Positions 26,092 through 40,665 of a DNA stretch of 47,051 nt are shown piece after piece. The stretch covers positions 1-47,051 of the forward strand of contig JACQZH010000035.1 of the NCBI GenBank assembly GCA_016213925.1. The letters are read 5' to 3'. A program made the position numbers and the translations under genes. Within the stretch, counting starts at the first letter, position 1; each line of letters begins with the position of its first letter. The notes beneath the pieces are model-generated. The model was not told where the DNA came from. It did not search any database and saw only the letters and a list, made by a program, of their open reading frames with translations. Source of the DNA: Candidatus Omnitrophota bacterium. GTDB taxonomy: Bacteria > Omnitrophota > Gorgyraeia > B26-G9.

Positions 26092-26529
26092 ATGATAATA
26101 AAAATTAAAAAAAGAAGTAAAGAAAGCGTTTTTTTTATGTTTTATTTTTTCTTTATTTTTTTTCTTTCAACGACCGCGTTTGCCGCGACTTATTACGTTG
26201 ACAGCAATGCAGCTAATGATAGCGGGATTGGTTCCTCTTTAAATCCTAAAAAATATATTTACTCCGGCATTCTGCTTATGAGCAGCGGAGACACTTTGAT
26301 TATCAAAGACGGTACTTATACAAGCAATAATGACCGGATCAGGGGAGTGCCTAGCGGTACTTCAGGTAATTACACGACTATAAAGGCTGAAAATGATTTT
26401 GGAGTTATTTTAGAAGGCTTAAGAGCAGGCGACGGTTTGGCAAGTGAAGAGGCGATTGTTAATTTGTATAATAAAAGCTGGGTAACGATAGAAGGCTTAA
26501 TATACTTTATCGGCAATCGAAATGTATAA
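26092..26529 (+). CDS. Gene A, 5' piece: signal peptide and start of a beta-helix protein (broken)
   Basis: The first 145 residues have a basic start, a hydrophobic run and a signal-peptidase site (TTAFA before ATYYVDSNAAND), then the beginning of a right-handed parallel beta-helix (pectate-lyase-like). The paralogue at 28719 is about 85% identical at first and continues smoothly. Here, 57 bases of the paralogue's sequence just before the SDHCRLRK block are replaced by 28 unrelated bases, a net loss of 29 nt. This shifts the frame and ends the protein at IYFIGNRNV. The piece would be secreted but cannot fold as the full protein. An assembly error is possible but would have to create replaced bases, not just an indel. 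Confidence 0.8.
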   Translation: MIIKIKKRSKESVFFMFYFFFIFFLSTTAFAATYYVDSNAANDSGIGSSLNPKKYIYSGILLMSSGDTLIIKDGTYTSNNDRIRGVPSGTSGNYTTIKAENDFGVILEGLRAGDGLASEEAIVNLYNKSWVTIEGLIYFIGNRNV

Positions 26530-28468
26530 TAGCGACCATTGCCGTTTGAGAAAAATAGGTATTAAAAACGGAGTGCACCCGGAAGCGGAGTATGGAGGCG
26601 CAATCAGTGCCAGCGGTAATGAATATTGTTTATTCGAAGATATTTTTATTTGCGGTATGATGCGCTATGGGATAAACGTAGGCGGAGGCAGCAGTAACTG
26701 TGATAATATATTGAGAAGAGTAGTAGCAAGGTGGGAGTACTGCACTACAGCACAGCCCCGGGCGGCAATAACTGTTTACGGCGGAAGCCAGGGAACTCCT
26801 CCTTGTGAAAATATTTTACTTCAAAATTGCATAGTTATAGATGGCAATAGCGCTAGCGGATCAACATTTACCGGAGGATTCAGTGTCCCTCATGAAACTT
26901 CTAATGTGCATAGATACGGATGTATAAGTTTAAATAATGGCGGTTATGGATTCCATTCGTCGGAGGATGAGTTATCTCATGATAACACAAATACGCATTG
27001 CGTTGTTTGGGATAGCGGCAATGGAATGTGGTGGAGGCATTTGGCAAGCGGGACATCGGGCGCGTATAATTGCACTTTTGAAGATACCGGGCCGGCAGGC
27101 TCATCGGATGCCGGGCGTGGAAGTATTTATGAATGTGAGGCAAAGGATAATGTTTTTATTAATTGTAATGCAGCAAATATGACGGCATCAGGTAATGTTA
27201 CGAGTAACAGGGGTGATTTTACTTATATTATAAGATCTCCGATAGCAGGAAAGGGAGCGACAATTGAGAAAAAAATGGGAGTAACAGGAACTTTATATGG
27301 AGAAAACGGATATAATTTACTGCAGGATGGTACTAATGAACAGGCTGATGAAAACTTGTGGCCCTGGCCTTATGAAGATAAGATAAAAGAATTATTTACC
27401 GAAGTGAATGCCCCGCCTTCAGGCTATGGGTTGTCTCCTTTAGATAATGATACGACTCGAGGTTTTTGCGCAGGGGGAGATTTTTTCGAGTATTCAGACG
27501 GCGTTCCGGTACGCAATACCTTAACCCGGTATATCTGGGAATATTATTCAGGAAATCCAATGCCGGTTTTGTACGATGCGCCAACCGGATTAGGGGCAGT
27601 GGCAGCAGAAACGGAAATCAGTTTGAGCTGGACAGAAATATATAAAATGGAAAGCGGATTCCGCATAGAAAGAAAGACGGATATAGGCGGAACTTATGAG
27701 CAAATAGCGGATGTCGGCGCGGATGTAATTTCATATAATGATACTGGATTAGCTATGGAAACCACTTATTATTATAGAATTAAGGCTTATAATTCCATGT
27801 TTGAGTCGGATTACTCGAATGAGACTCATGCGAAAACCGGATATATCCTGAATCCTCCCACAAGCTTTCGGTTATCAGATGATTCGAGCATGCTTTGCTG
27901 GTATTATAATCCCAGTGATGTTCCGGGATATGATGCTGCGGGCTTTAAAATAGAGCGCGTAGAGGGAAGCATTTTAAGTCCAGAAATTACAGAGATAAAA
28001 TTAGCGGATCCGGCGAAGTTATATTATGAAGATACTGGCTGCGTAAGCGGCATAAACTATTATTACAGGATAAGGGCATATAATGATAAGGCTGATTCGA
28101 TATTTTCCGATTGGGTTGGGCCGGTAACTATTTTATCAATAGGCGATGCCGAAGAACCTGCGCCGGATTCTCCTGCTCCTCCTGTGTCTTCTCCTGCGGC
28201 GAGCAGCAGTAACTCCGGCGGAGGCGGTGGCGGAGGATGTTTTATCGCGACTGCTGCATATGGGACACCTATGGCAGAGCAAGTAAAGATATTTAAAAAA
28301 ATAAGGGATGAGTATTTGCTAAATAGTAAAAGCGGAAGAGCTTTTATAGGTTTATATTACGGCTGCAGCGTTCCTATTGCGGATTACATATCCAAAAGAA
28401 ATTGGCTAAGAAAAATAGTTTGTATTCTTCTTGAGCCGATTATTTTTACAGCCGGTCAAATAGATTAA
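26522..28468 (+). CDS. Gene A, 3' piece: beta-helix, two FN3 domains and CFI-box tail
   Basis: This 648-residue frame carries the rest of gene A and has no signal peptide, so it is unlikely to be exported as it stands. It starts NSDHCRLRKIGIKNG inside the beta-helix, which runs to about residue 330. Two fibronectin type III-like domains follow (LSWTEIYKMESGFRIERKTD; FKIERVEGS...YYYRIRAYND). A proline/serine linker leads to the CFI-box sorting tail: seven glycines, then CFIATAAYGTPMAEQVKIF and the hydrophobic end (VPIADYISKRNWLRKIVCIL). Tails of this kind are C-terminal in many Omnitrophota-type secreted proteins and are thought to be sorting signals. No ribosome binding site is evident. Confidence 0.8.
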   Translation: MYNSDHCRLRKIGIKNGVHPEAEYGGAISASGNEYCLFEDIFICGMMRYGINVGGGSSNCDNILRRVVARWEYCTTAQPRAAITVYGGSQGTPPCENILLQNCIVIDGNSASGSTFTGGFSVPHETSNVHRYGCISLNNGGYGFHSSEDELSHDNTNTHCVVWDSGNGMWWRHLASGTSGAYNCTFEDTGPAGSSDAGRGSIYECEAKDNVFINCNAANMTASGNVTSNRGDFTYIIRSPIAGKGATIEKKMGVTGTLYGENGYNLLQDGTNEQADENLWPWPYEDKIKELFTEVNAPPSGYGLSPLDNDTTRGFCAGGDFFEYSDGVPVRNTLTRYIWEYYSGNPMPVLYDAPTGLGAVAAETEISLSWTEIYKMESGFRIERKTDIGGTYEQIADVGADVISYNDTGLAMETTYYYRIKAYNSMFESDYSNETHAKTGYILNPPTSFRLSDDSSMLCWYYNPSDVPGYDAAGFKIERVEGSILSPEITEIKLADPAKLYYEDTGCVSGINYYYRIRAYNDKADSIFSDWVGPVTILSIGDAEEPAPDSPAPPVSSPAASSSNSGGGGGGGCFIATAAYGTPMAEQVKIFKKIRDEYLLNSKSGRAFIGLYYGCSVPIADYISKRNWLRKIVCILLEPIIFTAGQID

Positions 28469-28718: not shown

Positions 28719-31136
28719 ATGAAGATAAAAATCAAAAAAAGAAGTAAGAAAAGCGTTTTTTTTATGTTTTATTTTTTCTTTGTTTTTTTTCTTTCAACAA
28801 CCGCGTTTGCCGCGACTTATTACGTTGACAGCAGCGCGGCTAATGACAGCGGTAATGGTTCTTCTGCTAATCCAAAAAAATATATTTATTCCGGTATCCT
28901 GCTTATGAGCAGCGGAGATACGTTGATTATTAAAGACGGCATTTATTCAAACAATAATGATAGAATAAGGGGAATGCCAAACGGTACTTCGGGTAATTAC
29001 ACGACGATTAAGGCAGAGAATGATTTTGGAGTTATATTGCAAGGTTTATCAGTAGGAACCGGGTTAGCCAGTGAACAGGCAGCGGTGAATTTATACAACA
29101 AGAGCTGGGTAACGATAGAAGGCTTAATAATAAAAGATTGCCAGGGCTCAGGTATTTATACGCTTTCAGCTATACAGGTAACAGACAGCGATCATTGCCG
29201 GTTAAGAAAACTTGGGATTAAAAACGGAGTGCACTCCGGCGCCGAGTATGGAGGTGCGATAAGTACCAGTGGAACAAGTTACAGTTTATTTGAGGATATA
29301 TTTATTTGCGGAATGATGCGTTATGGTATAAACGTGGGCGGAGGAAGCGGAAATGAATATAATATACTTAGAAGAGTAGTCGCAAGATGGGATTACTGTA
29401 CAACCGCGCAGCCGAGAGCGGCAATAACTGTTTACGGTGGAGGCCTGGGCACTACGACCTGTAATGAAATTTTATTGCAGAACTGCATAGTCTTAGACGG
29501 TAATAACGGCGGCGGATCTACATTTACCGGAGGCTTCAGTGTGCCTCATGAGACGGCTAATGTCCATAGATACGGATGTATTAGTTTAAATAACAGGGGA
29601 TATGGATTTCACTCATCTGAAGATGGGTTGAGCCATGATAACACAAATACGCATTGTGTTGTTTGGGACTCTGACAGCGGAATGTGGTGGAGGCATTTAG
29701 CAAGCGGAACGTCAGGCGCTTATAATTGTACTTTTGAAGGTACAGGACCTGCCGGTTCGTCGGATGCCGGGCGCGGAAGTGTTTATCAATGCGAAGCAGT
29801 GGATAATATTTTCATAAACTGCAGCGCGACGAATATGACAGTATCAGGCAATGTAACAAGAAACAGCAGCGATTTTTCCTATGTTGTAAGATCTCCTGCG
29901 ACTGGCAAGGGGGCGACAATTGAGAAAAAAATGGGAGTTACCGGCACTCTATATGGGGAAGCAGGATATAATACCCTTACAAATGATAATATTTGGCCGT
30001 GGCCTTATGAAGATAAGATAAAAGAATTATTCAGTGAAAGTAACCCCCCGCCGGTAAATGTTTCACCGCAAACTAATGATACAGCCAGAGGTTTTTGCGC
30101 CAGCGGGCAGACATTGACAAAATATATTTGGGAATATTTGGGCAATGCTATACCTGCAGAGATATATGGAACGCCGCCGGATACTACATCTCCGTCAGCA
30201 GTAAGTAATTTAAGCGTAACCTCAACGACATCAAGTTCAGCGGCACTAAGCTGGAGCGCGACAGGAGATGATGCAGGAAGCGGAACAGCGGCAAGTTATG
30301 ATATTAGATACTCAACCGCTGCAATCAATGATTCTAACTGGGCAAGTGCGACACAGGTAAGCGGAGAGCCATCACCTGCAGTGTCTGGGACAACGCAGAC
30401 AATGACAGTCAGCGGATTAAGTGCTGCTACTACATATTATTTTGCGATGAAGGTATCAGATGAAGTGCCGAATACATCGGCATTATCTAATGTAATTAGC
30501 GGAGCTACATCAACACCTCCTGATACTACAGCGCCAACAGCGATAAGTAACTTGAACGTAACTTCAACTACAGTAAGCAGTGCTACTTTAAGTTGGACAT
30601 CAACCGGAGATGATGCGGGCACAGGAACAGCAGCTAGCTATGATATAAGATATTCTACATCTACTATAAATGCAAGTAACTGGGCAAGTGCAACACAAGT
30701 AAGCGGAGAGCCATCACCTGCAGTGGCCGGGACAACGCAGACAATGACAGTCAGCGGATTAAGTGCTGCTACTGCATATTATTTTGCGATGAAAGTCTCC
30801 GATGAAGTTCCGAATACATCGGCGTTATCTAATGTTATTGGCGGAGTAACAGCAACGCCAGCACCTTCTGATACCACTGCTCCGTATACAACCGGACATG
30901 CTCCGGCAAAGTTTGCTGTGAATATTGATCCATCAACTAATATTGTAGTTCATGTAAAAGATGACGGGGCAGGAGTAGATATTAATACTATAATTATGAA
31001 AGTTAATGGAGTTGTTGTCAGCCCAATTATAACTGGAACTCCGGCTGATTACACGCTTACTTATGATCCGTCGCTTGATTTTACAACAGGACAGGTTGTT
31101 AATGTTACTGTTGATGCGCGGGATTTGGCGCCGTAA
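28719..31136 (+). CDS. Gene B: secreted beta-helix / FN3 protein ending in a truncated Ig-like domain
   Basis: This 805-residue exported protein is the intact paralogue of gene A. A signal peptide (1-31, cut before ATYYVDSSAAN) leads to a right-handed parallel beta-helix (about 32-455). Two FN3-like repeats of 114 residues follow (about 485-705; SYDIRYST and TYYFAMKVSDEVPN mark each). The last 90 residues (DTTAPYTTGHAPAKFAVNI through DFTTGQVVNVTVDARDLAP) match an SbsA/Big_5-type Ig domain, but the protein stops at DLAP, before the final YSFT strand of that fold. Unlike A and D it has no CFI-box or other anchor. A ribosome binding site (AAAGGA) and a sigma-54 promoter precede it. It may be tethered through the strand at the N-terminus of the next protein (see findings). 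Confidence 0.88.
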   Translation: MKIKIKKRSKKSVFFMFYFFFVFFLSTTAFAATYYVDSSAANDSGNGSSANPKKYIYSGILLMSSGDTLIIKDGIYSNNNDRIRGMPNGTSGNYTTIKAENDFGVILQGLSVGTGLASEQAAVNLYNKSWVTIEGLIIKDCQGSGIYTLSAIQVTDSDHCRLRKLGIKNGVHSGAEYGGAISTSGTSYSLFEDIFICGMMRYGINVGGGSGNEYNILRRVVARWDYCTTAQPRAAITVYGGGLGTTTCNEILLQNCIVLDGNNGGGSTFTGGFSVPHETANVHRYGCISLNNRGYGFHSSEDGLSHDNTNTHCVVWDSDSGMWWRHLASGTSGAYNCTFEGTGPAGSSDAGRGSVYQCEAVDNIFINCSATNMTVSGNVTRNSSDFSYVVRSPATGKGATIEKKMGVTGTLYGEAGYNTLTNDNIWPWPYEDKIKELFSESNPPPVNVSPQTNDTARGFCASGQTLTKYIWEYLGNAIPAEIYGTPPDTTSPSAVSNLSVTSTTSSSAALSWSATGDDAGSGTAASYDIRYSTAAINDSNWASATQVSGEPSPAVSGTTQTMTVSGLSAATTYYFAMKVSDEVPNTSALSNVISGATSTPPDTTAPTAISNLNVTSTTVSSATLSWTSTGDDAGTGTAASYDIRYSTSTINASNWASATQVSGEPSPAVAGTTQTMTVSGLSAATAYYFAMKVSDEVPNTSALSNVIGGVTATPAPSDTTAPYTTGHAPAKFAVNIDPSTNIVVHVKDDGAGVDINTIIMKVNGVVVSPIITGTPADYTLTYDPSLDFTTGQVVNVTVDARDLAP

Positions 31137-31137
31137 A

Positions 31138-31254
31138 ACCGAGTCCCGAAGACCGAGGGATGAAGGATGGAATATGTCACAGGTCACAAGATAATGTGAA
31201 TATATTTTGGATTGTTTTTAACTGGTGACTTTGTGACGTGGTGTCTTGGTGACG
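31138..31254 (+). repeat. Heptamer and octamer arrays 3' of gene B
   Basis: Nine heptamers lie in register from 31138 to 31200 (ACCGAGT, CCCGAAG, ACCGAGG ... CAGGTCA, ATGTGAA), beginning 1 nt after the stop. At 31223-31254 are four octamers (TGGTGACT, TTGTGACG, TGGTGTCT, TGGTGACG). The stretch 31255-31459 holds only AT-rich sequence with a GAAAATATTTTC palindrome and no gene. Confidence 0.75.
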
Positions 31255-31459
31255 TTTATCAGATTGTAACCTCAAGTAACATTTTCAAAATTCTCTCCTT
31301 AATAATAACTAATTAAAGAAAAAGATTTATGTTTTAGAAAATATTTTCTTGATTTTTAAAATTGAATAGACCCGCCTTTTAAAATATAAAAAACTCAAAA
31401 CATAACTAATGATTATAAAGCCGGTTGCATTATTACAAATAAAGACGCTAATTTTAGAA

Positions 31460-31476
31460 TTGGTATGAGTATTGCT
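31460..31476 (+). promoter_or_regulatory. Sigma-54 promoter for gene C
   Basis: TTGGTATGAGTATTGCT has the -24 GG and -12 GC doublets 12 nt apart and matches TGGYAY-N5-TTGCT with one deviation. The predicted start near 31488 lies at the beginning of the heptamer array, so the leader would consist mostly of repeats. Confidence 0.6.
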
Positions 31477-31482
31477 TGTATA

Positions 31483-31601
31483 TAGCGTATAGCGTATAGC
31501 GTTTAGCGAATAGCGATTAGTATTAAACTAAAAGTCAAAAACCAAAAGCTAAAAATTAAGAACATAAACCATTGGCTATTAGCCATTATCTATTGGCTAA
31601 T
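31483..31601 (+). repeat. Seventeen-unit heptanucleotide array in the leader of gene C
   Basis: Seventeen 7-nt units run without a register break. They drift from TAGCGTA/TAGCGAA types through AAACTAA/AAGTCAA/AAGCTAA types to GGCTATT/AGCCATT types. This is the longest clean example in the window. Confidence 0.9.
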
Positions 31602-31620
31602 AAAAGGAAGGGTGATTGGG

Positions 31621-32688
31621 ATGAAAATCAGGAAAATTAGTTTACTGTTGGCTGTGATTATTTTAATCGGTGAAGTTTTTATCGTAAGTAAAGCGTTTTG
31701 CGCGAATACCATGGCAACGGATAGCTATTCTTTTACCATTGTTCCCGATACTACAGCGCCTTCGGCAGTAACCAATTTAAGTATTACTCAAGCATTACAA
31801 AACTCCATTACCGTAGCATGGACTGCTACTGGTGATGACGGGTCAACCGGAACAGCATCAAGTTATGATATCAGATATTCGACTGCAAGTATAAATGCGA
31901 GTAATTGGGCAAGTGCGGCACAAGTAAGCGGGGAACCAACTCCTCAATTAGCAGGCACAACACAATCCATGACAGTTAGCAGCCTTTCTGCTGAACTGGC
32001 ATATTATTTTGCGATTAAGGCATCGGATGAAGCCGCTAATATATCTAGCTTATCAAATGTGGTGACAACAACTACTCCTGATCAAACAGCACCTGCTTCA
32101 GTTAGTAATTTAGCGATAAGTTCAAAAACTTATGATTCGGTGGTTTTGAGCTGGAGTGCTCCAGGAGATGATGGTTCCAGCGGAACAGCCTCTAACTATG
32201 ATATCAGGTATTCGACTGCAAGTATAAATGCGAGTAACTGGGCAAGTGGAACACAGGTAAGCGGAGAGCCTGTGCCGCAAGTGGCGGGGACTGTGCAAAC
32301 CACGACAGTCAGCGGTTTGACTGCGTCAACGACATATTTTTTTGCGATAAAAACAACTGATAATGCAGCAAATATATCCGATATATCTAATGTGCCAACT
32401 GGAACAACTAATGCAGTTCCGGATACAACGCCGCCTTATACTACAGGCCATATTCCGGTAAAGGATGCTTCGGGTATATCAACAGACACTAATATTATTG
32501 TGCATGTAAAAGACGATGGTGCGGGTGTTAATGTGAGTTCAATAGTCATGACTGTAAATGGACAAGTGGTTTCTCCGGCAATAACCGGCACTGCGGCAGA
32601 TTATCTTTTGAGTTATAACCCGGCCAATGATTTTCAGGCAGGACAGCAGATTTTTGTGACAATTCAGGCAAGTGATCTAGCGCCATAG
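31621..32688 (+). CDS. Gene C: secreted FN3 protein with N-terminal strand and truncated Ig-like domain
   Basis: This exported protein of 355 residues has a signal peptide of about 27 residues (LLLAVIILIGEVFIVSKAFC). The mature start is ANTMATDSYSFTIV, followed by two FN3-like domains of about 111 residues (SYDIRYSTASINASNWAS appears in both) and a C-terminal Ig-like domain from DTTPPYTTGHIPVKDASG. That domain stops at VTIQASDLAP, the same fold position where gene B stops. The start strand looks like the missing last strand of such a domain. No anchor is present. ATG at 31621 follows AGGAAGGG at 8 nt; an upstream GTG at 31612 is inside that site. A sigma-54 promoter lies 160 bp upstream. Confidence 0.85.
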   Translation: MKIRKISLLLAVIILIGEVFIVSKAFCANTMATDSYSFTIVPDTTAPSAVTNLSITQALQNSITVAWTATGDDGSTGTASSYDIRYSTASINASNWASAAQVSGEPTPQLAGTTQSMTVSSLSAELAYYFAIKASDEAANISSLSNVVTTTTPDQTAPASVSNLAISSKTYDSVVLSWSAPGDDGSSGTASNYDIRYSTASINASNWASGTQVSGEPVPQVAGTVQTTTVSGLTASTTYFFAIKTTDNAANISDISNVPTGTTNAVPDTTPPYTTGHIPVKDASGISTDTNIIVHVKDDGAGVNVSSIVMTVNGQVVSPAITGTAADYLLSYNPANDFQAGQQIFVTIQASDLAP

Positions 32689-32706
32689 CGCCGAAGGCGC
32701 TGACTT

Positions 32707-32783
32707 ATAGCTGATGGTTCATGGATAATGGGGTATTGACCATAGACTATCGACCATAGACTATCGACCATTAGATATAGGCG
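32707..32783 (+). repeat. Eleven-unit heptanucleotide array 3' of gene C
   Basis: Eleven units lie in strict register (ATAGCTG, ATGGTTC, ATTGACC, ATAGACT, ATCGACC and others). Just before it, AGCGCC-GAA-GGCGCT forms a small GC hairpin that overlaps the gene C stop codon. From 32784 to 33005 no gene is seen; there is an AT-rich hairpin of TTGGAAA and TTTCCAA near 32880. Confidence 0.9.
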
Positions 32784-33005
32784 AGCTTAAGCTTCTTGAA
32801 ACCTGAAATACCTTTCATAAAAACTGTGTTAATCAGGCTTTTTCTATGCTAATTTGGTTCCCGAAATAGTTTTCTGCTTTGGAAATATTTTTCCAAGCAA
32901 ATATTTATAAAAATACTTTCCACTAATACCGTGTTTTTCTCCAGCTGCAAGGTGTTTATTTTGAAAGAGTTATGGGTAGCATTTTTTGTGAGAAAAAGTA
33001 AAAAG

Positions 33006-33022
33006 TTGGCATGGGTAGTGCT
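33006..33022 (+). promoter_or_regulatory. Sigma-54 promoter for gene D
   Basis: TTGGCATGGGTAGTGCT has correct -24/-12 spacing; the -12 element is GTGC instead of TTGC. It shares TTGGCATG-N4-GTGCTTA-x-ATTAA with the element at 38521. Transcription from about 33033 would include the riboswitch-like leader. Confidence 0.65.
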
Positions 33023-33073
33023 TATATTAACAAGGAAGTAAAAATCGCACTTTGAAAAGTTTCAAGAATCTCG

Positions 33074-33257
33074 AAAAAGGCAAACCATCCGAAAGGATGG
33101 GACGGGTGTTAACCTTCCTGCTGAAGTCCGGCGGGAGCAAAGCTACAAGCCTAAAGTAGCGGATAGCGAATAGCGGTTAGCGAATAGAGAAAAAAGATAG
33201 AAACTCTAAACGCTGAACTCTAAACGCGAAACGCTAAAAAGGCGGTTGGGTTGCCGA
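33074..33257 (+). promoter_or_regulatory. c-di-GMP-I (GEMM) riboswitch-like leader with insertions
   Basis: The 5' half matches the GEMM-I core: GGCAAACC (33079-33086), the hairpin CCATCC-GAAA-GGATGG with its GNRA tetraloop (33085-33100), GACG, then CAAAGCTACAAGCCTAAAG (33138-33156). A GGTTGGGTTGCCGAA block (33243-33257) resembles the usual 3' end and touches the start codon of gene D. Two segments break the match: a 33-nt insert between GACG and CAAAGC (33105-33137), and the heptamer array (33157-33240) where the P3 loop should be. The aptamer may be damaged, or it may tolerate the expansions. Regulation of a surface protein by c-di-GMP would fit the family. Confidence 0.6.
33157..33240 (+). 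repeat. Heptanucleotide array inside the riboswitch-like leader
   Basis: Twelve units lie in register, first TAGCGGA/TAGCGAA/TAGCGGT, then CTAAACG/CTGAACT/CGAAACG. The second set is the reverse-complement type of the first. Confidence 0.88.
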
Positions 33258-33258
33258 A

Positions 33259-35790
33259 ATGAAAAAAATAAATAAGAAAAATGAAAATGTAGTAAGGCTC
33301 ATACTGGTTGCAAGTATGTTTTTGTTTGCAGGCAATAATGTTTATGCCGCAAATCAGATGGCTTCGGATAGTTATTCTTTTACGGTTATAGCGGATAATA
33401 CTGCTCCAGCTATAGCAAAATTAAATCCCCAGTCAGGTACTCAAAATGTTTCTCGTTCTTCCAATATTAAATTTTTAATAACTGATGACCTGTCAGGCTT
33501 GGATAGCAGCTCGATCGATCTAATTGTTGACAGCGACGCGGTTATAATAAACGGGGTTGTCCAGACATATGTTGACAGCAATGCACAGGTGCAAACCTAC
33601 GCAGCTCAGATTATTGAAAAGTCAGCAAAAGAATTTGTTGTGGTATATGATCCGGCGGAGTATTTTTTTTATAAGCAGTCGGTAGCAGTGAAAGTGACTT
33701 GTGCGGATGTACTTAGTAATGTTTTAAGCAATTACTCCTATACTTTTGAAACCCAAAACTTTGTTAGTGGAAATATAAAATCTTTTTCAAGAAAAAATAC
33801 AATTAGTGCTACGGGTGTTTATGCGCTAACCAGTGAAGAAGCCCAAGATAATGCGCGTTTGTCGGTATCGGCTGATGGTAAAAATGTATATCTTGTATGG
33901 GAAGAATGTTCTTTAACAGGAAGCTGGGATGTATATTTTTCAAAGTCAACTGATTTTGGGAATAACTTTTCAACAGCAATTAAAGTAAATCAGGAAGATT
34001 CCCAAATTGAACACTGCTATCCGGCAATAGCAGTAGATGATTCGGAAAATGTCTATGTTAGTTGGCAGCAGCGCTCAACAGGAGCAGACTGGGATATTTA
34101 TATTGCCTCTCTTAAAAATGGGGCAAGTGAATTTACGGATAGTTTCCTTGTATGCAATGATGCTAACTTTAACGATCAGACGCATCCGGCTTTTGCGGTT
34201 GGGCAATCACTTACAAGTGACGGCAATGAATTGACAGTGGAGCCTTCTTCTATATATATTTGCTGGATTGAAACAGCGGGAACAGTTTCTACAGTGCAGT
34301 ATACTAGAACAACAGCTGATTATAGCGATGCCTGGTATAATTTTGTTCCGATAACAATCAGAGTTGATGATGAGCGCTTACAACAGAGTTGTTATGATCC
34401 GAAGATTGAAATCAATGCTAATGGAGATATTTTTGTTGCCTGGCGTGCTCTTAACGCAAATAATACTTCAAGTATTTATTTCGATTATGCGCAATCATCT
34501 GTTATTGACGCGGGAGAGGATTTCGGAGTAGACATTATTGTTAGTGATTCAACGGCAAACGGCAAGGGCCCGGCTCTCAAAGTGTCAGAGAGCGGGAATG
34601 ATGTTTTCATACTCTGGAAAGAGCTTTTTCAGTCAGAAGCTAACCTAAATTTTTATGATTACCAGTATTCAATAGCAGGTTCAACATATGAGTTAAATAC
34701 TGCTTCGATTGTGAACGCTTCACCCTTTACCGCAGCGACATTATTTGAATATGACCTGCAGGTTGATGATAAAAAAAATGCGGTTGTTGTTTGGAGCGGA
34801 ACTATTAGCGGCGACCCGGTAATTACAATAGCCGGAGCAACCAATATTAACGCGTATCAATTTAAAGAATATAAACAATTTACTACAAGCGGACAGCAGG
34901 ATAAACCGGCTTTAGCGATTGATAATAGCGGAGCGCATTTTTATATTGGCTGGACTGATAATAGCAGCGGCGCGGATGAAGTGTACTTTTGCAGAAATAC
35001 ATTTATTGTAACTGATGATATCAATACTCAAGCAATTGAAAATAATATAGGCGCTAATGTATCCGTTACCCAGGGCTCCCTTGCTGGAACTTCAGTCAAT
35101 GTGAGTGATAATTCTCTTGATTTCCCGCTTCAGATGACTATAGCAAAAGTTATAGCGCCTCCGGCTGCCCAAGCTGATCTTATAACTATAGGTGAAGTAA
35201 TTGATTTTGGCCCTGGGGGAACGGTATTTGATAAATCTGTAACAATTGAACTTCCGTATACTGACGCACTGCTTAACGGACTGCAAATAGCTGGTGAAGC
35301 AGCATTAAATATTTACTATTATAATCTGGCAACATTAAGGTGGGAGATAGTTAATGGTGCGGTTGTTGATACAATGTTAAATAAGGTTTCTGTAGCGACA
35401 GATCATTTTTCAATGTATGTTATTGGGGCTTTAGTGTCTTCTCCTGGCGCGGATGAAGGTGTTGATTCCGGAGCAGATGAAGGTACGGGCAGCAGTAGTG
35501 CAGCGGTTCCTTCGGTTGGGGTTTCGGCAGGCGGCGGTGGCGGCGGCGGCGGCGGATGTTTTATAGCGACAGCAGCTTTTGGCACAAAAATGGCAAAAGA
35601 AGTGAGAATCCTAAATGAGTTCAGAGATAGGTATTTACTGACAAATAAATTAGGCACAAAGTTTGTGAAATTCTATTACAAAAACAGCCCGCCGATTGCG
35701 AATTATATAGCTAAGAATGAGGTTCTTAAAGCAGTTATAAGAATAGGCTTAAAACCTCTGGTGCAGTTTGGGAAAATGATGTGTCGGTAA
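33259..35790 (+). CDS. Gene D: secreted Ig / beta-propeller protein with CFI-box tail
   Basis: This 843-residue exported protein has a signal peptide (1-30, ...GNNVYA) and the mature start [14 protein letters not shown]. An Ig-like domain follows ([20 protein letters not shown] to about residue 170) that is complete in itself, ending NYSYTFETQ. Next is a long repetitive beta region resembling a sialidase-type propeller (NVYLVWEE..., an Asp-box-like [44 protein letters not shown]). Then come a sandwich-like domain ([15 protein letters not shown]...[11 protein letters not shown]), a Gly-rich linker and the CFI-box tail [19 protein letters not shown]. Of genes B, C and D it is the only one with a predicted anchoring tail. 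Sigma-54 and riboswitch-like elements precede it. Ligand or enzymatic activity is unknown. Confidence 0.87.
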
Positions 35791-35792
35791 AT

Positions 35793-35848
35793 TAGCGCAT
35801 AGCTTATGGCTCATAGCTTATGGCTCATAGCTTATGGCTCATAGCTCA
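35793..35848 (+). repeat. Eight-unit heptanucleotide array 3' of gene D
   Basis: Eight units (TAGCGCA, then alternating TAGCTTA and TGGCTCA) start 2 nt after the stop codon. The alternation gives a clear 14-nt higher-order period. Confidence 0.92.
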
Positions 35849-35895
35849 TGGGAAAAGAGTAAAGAATTAAACTTAGTGAATATCGGATAGAAACT

Positions 35896-36717: not shown

Positions 36718-37563
36718 ATGAAACCAATAAATTATATTAAAACGGCAATTGTGTTAGTATTGCTCGGGCTAATTTACTATCCAGCTTTTACCTGGATGTG
36801 GGTGCGATGGAATGCTGAAGAGACTTATTATAGCCACGGCCCGCTTATCCCTGTAGCTGTTTTGTTTTTTATTTGGATTAAGAAAGAAGAGTTGTTTAAA
36901 TTAAGAAATAATAGTTTAGACGCCGGTATTATATGTATATGCATGGGTATTTTTATGCATCTGGTAGCAATTTGGATAAATGTGTTATTTATATCGGCGG
37001 CATCGTTAATTGTAACGCTAATAGGCCTGATTCTTTACTTTTTTGGAAAAGAAATGCTGCGGAGAGTGCTTTTTCCTATCTGCTATTTTGTTTTTATGAT
37101 CCCATTACCGCTTTTTTTAATAGCGAATATTGTGGTGAAGATGAAACTTTTTGCCGCACAAATGGCTACGGTTGTTCTTAATAAAATAGGGATAGCGGCA
37201 ATAAGGGAGGGCAGTATTATCCATATGACAAGGTCATATCTTGCGATTGAGTCTCCTTGCAGCGGATTGAGATCATTGATATCTTTGATGGCTTTTGGAG
37301 CGGCTTTTGCTTATTTGACAAGGCATAATATGGCAAAGAAATGGGTTCTCTTCTTATCTGCTTTGCCTATAGCCTTATTAGCAAACGTATTGAGGATTGT
37401 TCTGCTTGGATGGGTAAGCGAGATTTATGGGATGGAAGCAGCGCAAGGATGGATACATGATTTTTCAGGGTATTTGTTATTTGTAATTGCAGCTTTTGCC
37501 ATGATTGCAGTAAATAGTTTGCTGGGAGCTGGGTTGAATAAGGTAAAGGAATCGAAAATTTAA
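36718..37563 (+). CDS. Exosortase (transpeptidase for PEP-CTERM proteins)
   Basis: This 281-residue polytopic membrane cysteine transpeptidase recognises the PEP motif and cleaves PEP-CTERM tails, probably linking the proteins to surface glycan. The family marks are all present: YYSHGPLIPVAVLFFIW near the start, the catalytic Cys181 in ESPCSGLRSL, Arg226 in ANVLRI and His247 in WIHDFSGYL. About eight hydrophobic segments are visible, as expected. It is followed 3 nt later by epsI-type DUF3485, the arrangement of XrtA-like systems. Three PEP-CTERM substrates are encoded within 5 kb. The ATG lacks a strong ribosome binding site. Confidence 0.95.
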   Translation: MKPINYIKTAIVLVLLGLIYYPAFTWMWVRWNAEETYYSHGPLIPVAVLFFIWIKKEELFKLRNNSLDAGIICICMGIFMHLVAIWINVLFISAASLIVTLIGLILYFFGKEMLRRVLFPICYFVFMIPLPLFLIANIVVKMKLFAAQMATVVLNKIGIAAIREGSIIHMTRSYLAIESPCSGLRSLISLMAFGAAFAYLTRHNMAKKWVLFLSALPIALLANVLRIVLLGWVSEIYGMEAAQGWIHDFSGYLLFVIAAFAMIAVNSLLGAGLNKVKESKI

Positions 37564-37566
37564 CAT

Positions 37567-38202
37567 ATGAAAAGATTTATTATTATAATATTTATATTAT
37601 TATTAGCCTTAGTATTTACTGTATTTCTGCAAACGAAATTTAAAGAAGCAAGCAAAATGAAAGCAAGTATGGATTTGCCTTCTGAAATAAACGGATATAA
37701 AGCGCAGGATATTAAATTGGATGATAAAGTATATGCAATTCTTGAGACAGACCAAGTAATTATGAGAAGATATGAAAAACAGGATGCAGCGCCGATTATT
37801 TTTTATTTTGTATTTTCTCCTAATAGAGCTAGGGCATCGGATCCTCCGGAGGTATGCCTTATTGGAGAAGGCAATATGATTCAGGAAAAGACGACAACTG
37901 GTTTAATTATTGCTTCAGAGGGCAAAGATTTTAAGCTGAGAGTAAATAAGCTTATCGTAGAAAAAGATGGGAGAAAAGAGTTGGTTCTTTATTGGTACTA
38001 TGCGGGTAGTGAAGTTACGCATGATTATTTTAGGCATCAGGCAAAGCTGCTTTTTAAAAATTTATTATTTCAATCTCCCGGCTGCGGAATGGTCAGGTTG
38101 TATATCCCTATTTTAGGGGGTGATGAAAATAGTGCAATGGAAGCTCTTAATGAATTTCTTAACGCAGTATTCCCTCATATATCAAAAAACCTTTCCCGAT
38201 AA
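37567..38202 (+). CDS. epsI: EpsI-family exosortase-associated protein
   Basis: This 211-residue protein has a single N-terminal membrane anchor (FIIIIFILLLALVFTVFLQ) and an EpsI/DUF3485 domain outside the cytoplasm. Recognisable blocks are MDLPSEINGYKAQDIKLDDKVYAILETD, RASDPPEVCLIGEGN and VLYWYYAGSEVTHDYFRHQAKL. EpsI proteins are found beside or fused to exosortases and polysaccharide export genes. Their exact role is unresolved, but they are needed for exopolysaccharide formation in methylotrophs. The 3-nt spacing to the exosortase gene indicates one transcript. Its length and motifs are normal. Confidence 0.9.
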   Translation: MKRFIIIIFILLLALVFTVFLQTKFKEASKMKASMDLPSEINGYKAQDIKLDDKVYAILETDQVIMRRYEKQDAAPIIFYFVFSPNRARASDPPEVCLIGEGNMIQEKTTTGLIIASEGKDFKLRVNKLIVEKDGRKELVLYWYYAGSEVTHDYFRHQAKLLFKNLLFQSPGCGMVRLYIPILGGDENSAMEALNEFLNAVFPHISKNLSR

Positions 38203-38252
38203 ACAGTGTTTTTAGTATTGCCATCCGGATTTTTATTTTTTTCAAAGCGCTA

Positions 38253-38280
38253 TTGACAAATTGAAAACTTATGGTATACT
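38253..38280 (+). promoter_or_regulatory. Sigma-70 promoter upstream of the sugar transferase
   Basis: TTGACA (38253-38258), a 16-nt spacer and TATACT (38275-38280) are near consensus. It lies 305 bp upstream of the next gene. The rest of 38281-38520 is very AT-rich, with two CGAA-centred motifs (near 38310 and 38356) that could be activator sites; no gene is seen there. Confidence 0.65.
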
Positions 38281-38520
38281 CTTTGAATCTGTTTTTTTTC
38301 GACCTAACTTTGAAATTTTCGAACACATATTGAATTAGATTAGATGTTGTTTTTCGAAACAGAAGTGTTGATTTTTTTTTACAAAAAATTGTTTTGGTTG
38401 AAAATTAAGCAGGTAAGAAAAGTAATTTTTTTAATTGACTTTAGAAAGTTATTTAATTAACGGAAGATAAAAGAGTTATAAAACAAAAAAAATAGAGTTT
38501 TTTTTTGAATTGTCTCATGC

Positions 38521-38537
38521 TTGGCATGCTTCGTGCT
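38521..38537 (+). promoter_or_regulatory. Sigma-54 promoter for the sugar transferase
   Basis: TTGGCATGCTTCGTGCT keeps the 12-nt GG-GC spacing and closely resembles the element before gene D, including the downstream CTTA-x-ATTAA. Transcription would begin near 38549, leaving a 36-nt leader. Confidence 0.7.
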
Positions 38538-38584
38538 TACATTAAAGAACGTGAAAGAAAAATAGATTGGAGGAATTTTAAAAA

Positions 38585-39370
38585 GTGAGAACTTCGAATA
38601 ACGTGGCAAAAATAAATATTGGAATTTTAATAGTTGTTTTAATAATATATTCGCTATTGGCGATTAGAAAAGTGATGGCTATGTCGTTTCCTGAATCAAT
38701 CGCAGCTGAACCGCTGGGGCTTGTTGCTTTATGGGTCGGGATAAGTGGAGCCATCGTTCAATTTGCGCAATCTAAGTTTGTTAAGCTTAAAAGGATTTTT
38801 GACATTGTTGTTTCTCTTAGTGCGCTTGCTTTAACATTTCCGGTAGTTTTAGCATGTGCAATTTTTATAAAAATTTTTTCTCCAAAAGGGCATATTTTTT
38901 ATACGCAAAATAGAGTAGGTAAAGATGGAAAAATTTTTAAAATTTTTAAACTGCGTTCTATGATTCCTGATGCGGAAAAAAGTAGCGGAGCAGTTTGGTC
39001 TAATGAAGAAGCTGATCCTAGGATTATTCCTTTTGTCGGAACTTTTTTGAGAAAAACGCATATTGATGAAGTCCCGCAGTTTTTGAATGTATTGTTCGGA
39101 GATATGAGCGTGGTCGGCCCAAGGCCGGAGCGCCCGGAGATTGTGAAAGTTCTTATGGTGAAAATCCCAGAATACGAAAAACGTCTTAACGTAAAACCGG
39201 GAATCACAGGGCTTGCTCAAATCAGGCATCGTTATGATAAAACCTTGTTGGATGTGAAGAAAAAGGTTAAGTTGGATTTGCTGTATATTAGAAGAATGTG
39301 TCTATTCGGGGAATTAAGTATTTTATTGCGAACTTTAATAGTTGTATTCAGAGGAAAAGCTTTGAGTTAA
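38585..39370 (+). CDS. Undecaprenyl-phosphate sugar phosphotransferase (priming enzyme)
   Basis: This membrane enzyme transfers a sugar-1-phosphate to undecaprenyl phosphate and so starts the polysaccharide repeat unit. Two N-terminal hydrophobic segments precede the catalytic domain, whose marks are KRIFDIVVSLSALALTFPVV, FYTQNRVGKDGKIFKIFKLRSM, LRKTHIDEVPQFLNVLFGDMS and VVGPRPERPE, ending GITGLAQIR. At 261 residues it lacks the large N-terminal CoA-binding-like domain of WcaJ. The start is GTG at 38585 with GGAGG upstream. Sigma-54 and sigma-70 elements precede it, suggesting that polymer priming is a regulated step. Confidence 0.92.
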   Translation: MRTSNNVAKINIGILIVVLIIYSLLAIRKVMAMSFPESIAAEPLGLVALWVGISGAIVQFAQSKFVKLKRIFDIVVSLSALALTFPVVLACAIFIKIFSPKGHIFYTQNRVGKDGKIFKIFKLRSMIPDAEKSSGAVWSNEEADPRIIPFVGTFLRKTHIDEVPQFLNVLFGDMSVVGPRPERPEIVKVLMVKIPEYEKRLNVKPGITGLAQIRHRYDKTLLDVKKKVKLDLLYIRRMCLFGELSILLRTLIVVFRGKALS

Positions 39371-39412
39371 TAACGATTAAGCTTATGAAAATTTTATAAT
39401 AAGGAGATATGT

Positions 39413-40072
39413 ATGAAAAAAATAGTAGTTTTAGCTTTGATAGGAGTTATCAGCGTTTTTTTCGCAAGTAATGCGGTAGCATTACCTATATATGGCAATG
39501 GTTTATTGGGTGATTTTACTGGTAACTTAACATATAATCATGCTAGTGATACCAGTGCAACTTTAACTGTTGAACTGGCAAATTCAAGCGCTGAAGAAAA
39601 TAGTGGTTATATCACTGCGTTTGTATTTAATAATCCTTCAAATTTAATTAGCGGAATTTCAGTAGCATCTTTTTCAGATACTGATTTTAATTTATTTAAT
39701 ACCGGGCTAAGCGCGTCTCCTTATGGAGAATTTGATTATGGAGTCAGTATAGGGAGAAATGCTTCCAGCAACTTTGCTGACGGAGGAAATCCTTCAAAGG
39801 GAATAGCTGTTGGTGACGAAGAAATATTTAGATTTGCTCTTATTGGCACGGATTTGGATACTATAGATGAGAATAGTTTTCTTAGCGAGTTGTCAAGCGG
39901 CGCAAGCCAAGGGCAGGGAAATCAGGCTTTTGTGGTGCGTTTTCGCGGTTTTGAAGACGGAGGAAGTGATAAGGTCCCAGTGGAAAATCCAGTTCCTGAA
40001 CCGTCAACTGTGTTATTATTAGGGCCGGCTTTGCTGGGTCTGCTTGGATTAAAAAGGTTTAAATTTAATTAA
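39413..40072 (+). CDS. PEP-CTERM surface protein
   Basis: This 219-residue secreted protein has a signal peptide (1-24, ASNAVALP) and a Ser/Asn/Gly-rich beta-type body typical of PEP-CTERM substrates. It ends with the sorting signal VPEPSTVLLLGPALLGLLG followed by LKRFK. The GPALL core is shared with the other two substrates in the window. It should be processed by the exosortase encoded 2 kb upstream and attached to the extracellular matrix. AAGGAGAT is the ribosome binding site. The body has no recognised enzymatic motif. It is paired with another PEP-CTERM gene 17 nt downstream and closed by a terminator. Confidence 0.9.
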   Translation: MKKIVVLALIGVISVFFASNAVALPIYGNGLLGDFTGNLTYNHASDTSATLTVELANSSAEENSGYITAFVFNNPSNLISGISVASFSDTDFNLFNTGLSASPYGEFDYGVSIGRNASSNFADGGNPSKGIAVGDEEIFRFALIGTDLDTIDENSFLSELSSGASQGQGNQAFVVRFRGFEDGGSDKVPVENPVPEPSTVLLLGPALLGLLGLKRFKFN

Positions 40073-40089
40073 AAAGGGGAGGTAAGAAA

Positions 40090-40665
40090 GTGAGAAAAGT
40101 ATTTGGCATAATTTTAGTAGTGGGTGTTTTATTGATCAATAATGTTATAGCTCAGGCTGCATTATATAGTTTTGAGCCAACTCCTGTTGATTTATACGAG
40201 TTGCAGCATGGTGATTTTTATGTTTGGAGTATTGAGTGGACGGTTCCAAAAAATATACAAAGTGCTTATTTTACTATTGACGGAATAAATAATAATCGTT
40301 GGTGGGACCCTCAAGATGACAATTCTTTATATATTCATCTGCTAGATAACCCGCTTCCTGGAATTTATAGAGGCAGAGATACTACTCTTGGAAATGAGTT
40401 TATTGGGCAGGGTACTTGGTTGGTTACTTATAAAGATACTAATGGTGGTTCTTATGAGAACTGGAGATATAATTTTACTCCTGATGAACTTGATATGCTC
40501 AAACAATATGGTTCAGATGGAATTTTTGGATTTGGAATAGACCCTGATTGTCAGTTTACAAATAAGCGTATTGCATTTACAGCGGCAGTGCCAGAGCCAA
40601 TGTCGATATTATTATTCGGCCCGGCATTATTGGGACTTGTTGGCTTGAGAAGAAAAAAGCTATAA
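40090..40665 (+). CDS. PEP-CTERM surface protein
   Basis: This 191-residue secreted protein begins at GTG 40090 behind AGGGGAGG. The signal peptide ends near VIAQAALYSF. The body is aromatic-rich (DFYVWSIEWTVPKN, NNNRWWDPQDDNSLYIHL, GQGTWLVTYKD), suggesting a beta-sandwich that might bind carbohydrate, but no family is recognised. The tail VPEPMSILLFGPALLGLVG followed by LRRKK is a clear PEP-CTERM signal for exosortase. It is co-transcribed with the preceding PEP-CTERM gene and followed by a strong bidirectional terminator. Confidence 0.88.
   Translation: MRKVFGIILVVGVLLINNVIAQAALYSFEPTPVDLYELQHGDFYVWSIEWTVPKNIQSAYFTIDGINNNRWWDPQDDNSLYIHLLDNPLPGIYRGRDTTLGNEFIGQGTWLVTYKDTNGGSYENWRYNFTPDELDMLKQYGSDGIFGFGIDPDCQFTNKRIAFTAAVPEPMSILLFGPALLGLVGLRRKKL

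Follow-up and report, generated by a model that had tools for sequence, protein, structure and literature searches.

Donor-strand complementation joins the subunits of several described bacterial and archaeal assemblies. In the portions of the source cited here, chaperone-usher pili combine an incomplete immunoglobulin-like (Ig-like) subunit with a donor N-terminal extension, and the type V pili of Bacteroidetes use donor-strand complementation without a chaperone-usher system, from lipidated precursors that are cut by an Arg/Lys protease (PMC9715654). Archaeal threads are built from a Sec-exported protein (Saci_0406) whose mature N-terminus is the donor strand, with assembly being spontaneous or mediated by unknown machinery (same portions of PMC9715654). 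For Bacillus subtilis, the cited part of PMC9674648 describes an N-terminal donor strand of TasA that is exposed by signal-peptide cleavage and completes the next subunit, as well as an accessory protein, TapA, with a donor sequence in common with TasA. Sec-exported donor-strand assembly outside the usher pathway is therefore possible, on the precedent of TasA/TapA (PMC9674648) and the archaeal threads (PMC9715654). Here, a locus of three consecutive genes for secreted proteins (B, C and D) is described from an Omnitrophota genome. It lies in the window, namely the whole 47,051-bp contig analysed (JACQZH010000035.1; C46 of a 2.27-Mb genome), and encodes a split Ig-like system that, judged by sequence, corresponds to no known system tested and appears to work like donor-strand complementation.

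Donor-strand complementation quite probably couples three classes of secreted protein in this system: acceptor-only, bifunctional and CFI-tailed donor-only. An Ig-like domain is cut in the loop preceding its last strand. Acceptor proteins terminate at the cut, which would leave an open groove, and signal-peptide cleavage would expose the last strand of a donor as its new N-terminus. The classes comprise acceptor-only passengers (B, with a beta-helix and FN3 domains), subunits with both donor and acceptor (C, including minimal single-Ig forms of 136–161 amino acids) and, as D, CFI-tailed proteins that carry a donor alone. The D strand would fill C or B, and the C strand B or another C, such that passengers would be tethered non-covalently to CFI-tailed D, directly or via at least one C. 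The strand would presumably dock in the groove of its partner outside the cytoplasm, following Sec export. The CFI box would act as the anchor and C may polymerise, either into long fibres or as single links.

A split Ig-like domain and its missing strand

The comparison covers 12 metagenome-assembled genomes (MAGs) of one Omnitrophota family, 69–93% complete, and 26 related loci (nine family acceptors and 17 non-family loci); genomes, contigs and loci carry G, C and L numbers. In the window, B ends VTVDARDLAP before TAA and C ends VTIQASDLAP before TAG. All 12 intact unfused acceptors of the family terminate within one residue of the same alignment column, nine of them as DLAP, in agreement with the original prediction that B and C end at one and the same position of an Ig-like domain, before its last strand; the position lies within a loop. 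These acceptors are distributed over five of the 12 genomes (G000, G002, G004, G010 and G011; the G004 gene is open at a contig edge), and the full-length C orthologs of G002 and G010 terminate at the end residue of C itself. A profile built from the 12 aligned acceptors and run over the family genomes additionally detected one broken copy in G001, one fused gene in G007 and a D-like protein, weakly, in G008, with no match in G003, G005, G006 or G009. In the fused gene (L042), the start of which lies beyond the contig, the acceptor domain is joined directly to a D protein (AASDESGNVMSAEEWTFSVATDLTAP).

The domain continues into the strand within one chain in 14 of the 17 non-family loci (e.g. 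VDASDIAGNPM..DAYSFT); of the remaining three, L071 has diverged too far for a judgement, and L068 and L072 match only in part. A wider profile search covered 384 class and 384 phylum genomes (overlapping samples, family members included). Its tally outside the family, limited to matches with E < 1e-10, holds eight matches in six genomes (G151, G041, G259, G350, G362 and G424), all of which continue into the strand. Since 14 of the 17 non-family chains run on in this way, the ends of B and C and the starts of C and D are the separated parts of a single loop and last strand. The split-Ig pattern is no local accident. Split acceptors and motif-bearing donors recur across genera of the family, so that the split is not unique to this assembly, and the single fused family gene is that of G007. 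The same Ig domain, with 61% identity and its strand in cis, is also present on a contig labelled Methanosarcinales (L055), through transfer or mis-binning.

The strand is found at the mature N-termini of C and D, where it had been placed originally. Signal peptides and cleavage sites were assigned by eye. Mature C begins A-NTMATDSYSFTI directly after the signal peptide, and in 17 of the 18 donor genes identified, the strict motif N.M..D.Y.F.[IV] stands at this position. The variant, in the second D-like gene of G004:C77 (L038:3-1586, open at the contig edge), reads NFSRDTYSFTC after the signal peptide, one residue shorter and without the Met. Mean pairwise identity among 17 donors (a set that leaves out the G006 duplicate of G011:C14, the broken C in G001, the G007 fusion and two donor-less D-like proteins) is 0.59 for the 12-residue strand, in which N, M, Y and F are preset by the strand-locating pattern, versus 0.19 for the signal-peptide core (ungapped). 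For the 66 C–D pairs the values are 0.59 and 0.17. The earlier observation of a conserved strand behind dissimilar signal peptides extends to these 17 donor genes. Scanning the DNA of the 12 genomes (~26 Mb) with the strict motif gave 19 sites, all in donor or split-system genes (the 17 donor genes, the identical D copy in G006 and the broken C of G001), while the reversed-pattern control gave none. The linker from donor to next domain is short, like that of chains with the strand in cis. The donor Asp is present in 17 of 18 cases in trans versus 6 of 14 in cis, and an acceptor Lys in 12 of 12 versus 10 of 17 (all 17 non-family loci; p 0.023). A covalent lock at the donor–acceptor joint is a bare possibility, and the isopeptide bond is reduced to this remark, the Lys being common in cis too.

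Gene order varies among relatives. The order B-C-D occurs in the window and in G010:C84, where ~4 kb of other genes separate C and D, and C-D in G011:C14 and G010:C136, with minimal C and D 21 bp apart in the latter. D precedes C in G011:C183 (the D-before-C order is given for L045), and B-type acceptors lie apart from C and D in G011:C85 and G010:C93. The minimal C genes, three in G010 and G011 (frames of 136, 140 and 161 amino acids), encode only a signal peptide, the strand and one truncated Ig domain. A second D lineage adjoins a two-component system in five genomes and has kept its donor strand in all five, also where the neighbouring minimal C is not intact, which fits a strand serving acceptors encoded elsewhere. 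In G000:C80 (L130:3546-6044), a second D paralog with a donor strand stands beside a two-component system with no nearby acceptor gene.

Donor motif and split acceptor occur together in six of the 12 genomes (the G001 acceptor being broken) and are both absent from five; G006 has a donor only, on a contig that ends just upstream of the donor gene. This co-occurrence gives a Fisher p of 0.015 (0.028 with the broken acceptor scored as absent), uncorrected for relatedness. The G011:C14 (L043) and G006:C4 (L133) D genes are identical, probably through bin contamination (listed as 8% for G011). Between G002 and G010, the ratio of nonsynonymous to synonymous substitution rates (dN/dS) is 0.13 for C and for the second D, 0.14 for D and 0.26 for B; within the acceptor domains it is 0.10 (C) and 0.23 (B). 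The 12-codon donor strand is too short for a dN/dS reading alone. The genes are under purifying selection in this one genus pair.

Proposed assembly and its alternatives

Several observations weigh against donor-strand coupling of these proteins. Two AlphaFold2 predictions, both of monomers, were read from the predicted local distance difference test (pLDDT) and strand assignment rather than from coordinates. When the C acceptor was tethered to the D donor via the read-through spacer, the donor was left undocked (pLDDT 32–37, no strand) and the acceptor folded (block means 73–90 over residues 21–80). With its 190-residue junk tether this model is a poor test, and it neither supports nor refutes the originally proposed docking of the D donor in the C acceptor. 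In the other model, minimal C of L049 combined with a D donor, the protein's own donor reached a higher pLDDT (61–66) than the D donor (31–52); both were assigned as strands at low confidence, and contacts are unreadable. Minimal C is intact beside the two-component-linked D in only one of five loci (G010), being broken in G001, reduced to a 21-residue remnant in G002 and not found in two. Two D-like proteins that form a separate tree group (G008 and G004:C176) have no donor strand; G008 has no split acceptor, and G004 has one despite the donor-less G004:C176. Finally, the split cases all come from one family (12 MAGs), which makes for few independent events, and the selection estimate comes from a single genus pair.

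The matching halves and their conservation favour the relay first proposed, in which D completes C and C completes B, but leave its fixed order unproven: the C and D donors are too alike to be assigned to acceptors, and C–C joining is equally possible. A stronger form of donor-strand coupling, with close to an even chance of being correct, makes C or minimal C the true pilin of a homopolymeric fibre (C-C-C). B would be the tip, and D the base or nucleator, a part comparable to that of TapA in TasA fibres. Both donor and acceptor are present in C, in its full-length orthologs of G002 and G010 and in the three minimal C genes. Moreover, the D donor resembles the C donor, as the TapA N-terminus resembles the TasA donor strand in the cited part of PMC9674648. 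The loss or decay of minimal C at four of the five two-component-linked D loci speaks against such a fibre, and C–C pairing is not separable from C–D pairing. Taken further, the system may be a surface fibre independent of those compared, in which a tandem-Ig chain has been cut in the loops before its last strands and its geometry rebuilt from separate proteins, with minimal C as a self-assembling pilin, B-type proteins as exchangeable tips and CFI-boxed D as base and nucleator; this is tentative, with somewhat less than an even chance. It is unlikely that the N-terminal strand of C instead folds into its own Ig domain, giving a circularly permuted monomer and no relay. The L049 model does make the protein's own donor a strand (pLDDT 61–66), followed by a low-confidence stretch (69–83) at the expected first strand. 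However, both ends are conserved even though a donor is missing from B and a free acceptor from D, and the linker from donor to Ig domain in minimal C, as short as the tandem-Ig linker of cis chains, argues against self-completion, being judged too short for the strand to reach back.

The original prediction also allowed for one gene split twice by repeats. That the present proteins are neutral relics of a long ancestral gene in which an inserted repeat element interrupted the same loop is very improbable. The fused G007 form, the short repeats in the spacers, the decay of minimal C beside some D genes and the hairpins at some acceptor stop codons (fold z < -2 at four of 12 acceptor gene ends versus five of 112 other gene ends, with B and C of the window not among the four) would all suit such debris. 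Against it stand the dN/dS of 0.13–0.26 in the tested pair, the signal peptides of the downstream pieces, acceptor genes on other contigs, the minimal donor–acceptor genes, the D-before-C order in L045, the tight C–D spacing in G010:C136 and the donors kept where a neighbouring acceptor is gone. Gene splitting may describe the origin of the system, as the fused gene allows, and does not account for its present state; the D tree, which is midpoint-rooted, does not resolve whether the fused form is ancestral. There is an equally slight probability that the conserved segment at the N-termini of C and D serves as a signal for sorting or modification and that the truncated Ig ends fold alone. Its position directly after the signal peptide, with N, M and D the same in 17 of 18 donor genes, would suit a signal, but in cis homologs the segment forms the same domain's last strand. 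Donor-strand coupling through matching halves is the preferred reading.

Features of the window

The features of the locus are collected in Table 1. The beta-helix of B and the two-component and exosortase/PEP-CTERM-like genes of the region and its relatives were named by eye. Translation of C more likely starts at ATG 31621 than at GTG 31612, based on ortholog alignment. D contains a complete Ig domain with its own strand in cis, as predicted; over 61 residues this domain is 29% identical to the acceptor of C. The propeller-like region of D gives a weak BNR_4 match, below cut-off.

Table 1. Positions of the split-Ig genes, their domains and adjoining features in the window
Feature	Position	Strand	Basis
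Gene A, CFI-box-ended relative of B, two frames (26092-26529, 26522-28468)	26092..28468	+	
Gene B: signal peptide, beta-helix-like passenger, two FN3, truncated Ig (acceptor only)	28719..31136	+	FN3 by Pfam
B acceptor Ig domain without last strand, ends DLAP + stop	30870..31133	+	12-acceptor alignment; cis homologs run on
Spacer B-C, 484 bp, short 7-nt-type repeats	31137..31620	+	
Gene C: signal peptide, donor strand, two FN3, truncated Ig (donor + acceptor)	31621..32688	+	Full-length orthologs in G002 and G010
C donor strand NTMATDSYSFTI, mature N-terminus	31705..31740	+	
C acceptor Ig domain, ends DLAP + stop	32422..32685	+	
Spacer C-D, 570 bp	32689..33258	+	
Gene D: signal peptide, donor strand, complete Ig, propeller-like region, CFI-box tail (donor only)	33259..35790	+	
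D donor strand, mature N-terminus	33352..33387	+	
D's own Ig domain, last strand in cis	33394..33753	+	Weak Big_5, E 0.21
CFI-box C-terminal domain of D	35557..35763	+	NF041770

The CFI-box model NF041770 (cut-off 40 bits) matches D with 99.7 bits (E 6e-29) and gene A with 82.2 bits, and no match was obtained in B or C, consistent with the proposal that D alone of the three bears this tail. A and B are related (88% identity over 137 residues and 53% over 583), though the frames of A overlap and the gene appears disrupted compared with B. Related beta-helix proteins bear a CFI-box tail, as in A, or an acceptor tail, as in B, in four cases: the window, G010, G002 and G011 (C85 versus C165, the latter in two fragments at contig ends). 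This alternation suggests that the acceptor tail is an alternative route to a CFI-tailed partner. In G005, which has no split system, there are 18 matches to D and, among the matches listed, all fall in the CFI-box region; there the tail looks like a general module.

Imperfect repeat arrays of a 7-nt type (AGCGAAT, AGCTTATGGCTCAT and others) occupy the spacers of the window (31480-31560, 32700-32790 and 33155-33235, with a further array at 35794-35864), and in relatives come after some gene ends. No Rfam family was found in the window at gathering thresholds, and the spacers are therefore not explained by a known RNA. Several acceptor genes have inverted repeats at their stop codons, with arms of 9 bp in G010 C and 7 bp in G010 B; the observation refers to the acceptor gene ends at window 31110-31140 and 32670-32705 and in L015, L037, L039, L041 and L045. 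Such a repeat may be a terminator, an mRNA stabiliser or the footprint of the cutting event. Downstream of D lie exosortase-like and PEP-CTERM-like genes (36718-40665). A similar neighbourhood adjoins D in G002, G007 and G011, and exosortase-like genes are present in G004 too.

Relation to described donor-strand systems

Database comparisons place the proteins in none of the families searched. The SbsA/Big_5 label first given to the truncated domains was not borne out: those of B and C have no Pfam match to Big_5 (PF13205), and the match of D's own Ig domain (12.7 bits, E 0.21) is below the gathering cut-off of 23.6. Pfam matches to E 1 for B, C and D include no TasA-type and no pilin family. 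The usher (PF00577) and the PapD-like chaperone (PF00345) were each detected in none of the 12 family MAGs, with positive Escherichia coli controls. Searches of PDB sequences with the acceptor and the acceptor profile gave chance-level matches only. Foldseek gave no match at E <= 0.001 for either model; the best matches (pilin, collagen-adhesin and filamin domains; E 0.004–0.2) were given no weight. A search of open-licence papers found none on a donor strand in Omnitrophota, and none of the papers listed by related searches deals with this system.

If correct, the proposed coupling would extend donor-strand assembly to Omnitrophota and to a generic Ig-like domain, in a modular three-class design with passengers, spacers and CFI-tailed partner as separate genes. 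The CFI-box tail could then be tested for a role at the base of a surface complex. The fused gene and the homologs with the strand in cis could indicate how an ordinary multidomain protein turns self-assembling, or the reverse, and so provide a model for the evolution of pilus-like assembly. The short peptide–domain pairs may also serve as protein joining tags.

In chaperone-usher pili, the tip subunit has no donor and the end subunit no free groove. The present system resembles these pili (type 1, P and Saf) in its incomplete Ig-like subunit and donor extension, with B like the tip and D like the end subunit without a free groove, but differs in the absence, among the 12 MAGs, of matches to the usher and PapD-like chaperone, and of a pilin Pfam match. 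As far as the cited portions of the sources describe them, type V pili likewise use donor strands without a chaperone-usher system; their precursors are lipidated and protease-cut, whereas here the strand adjoins a signal peptide that appears to be of the Sec type. The same portions give archaeal threads a Sec-exported subunit with an N-terminal donor strand. The threads differ in having one main subunit, glycans and a proposed isopeptide bond, compared with three subunit classes here. TasA/TapA, within the cited part of its source, shares the donor strand at the mature N-terminus and an accessory protein with a common donor sequence, as in C and D. TasA is a jellyroll protein of a Gram-positive bacterium with its own signal peptidase, SipW, whereas the Omnitrophota system combines a split Ig-like domain with FN3 spacers, beta-helix passengers and a CFI-box partner.

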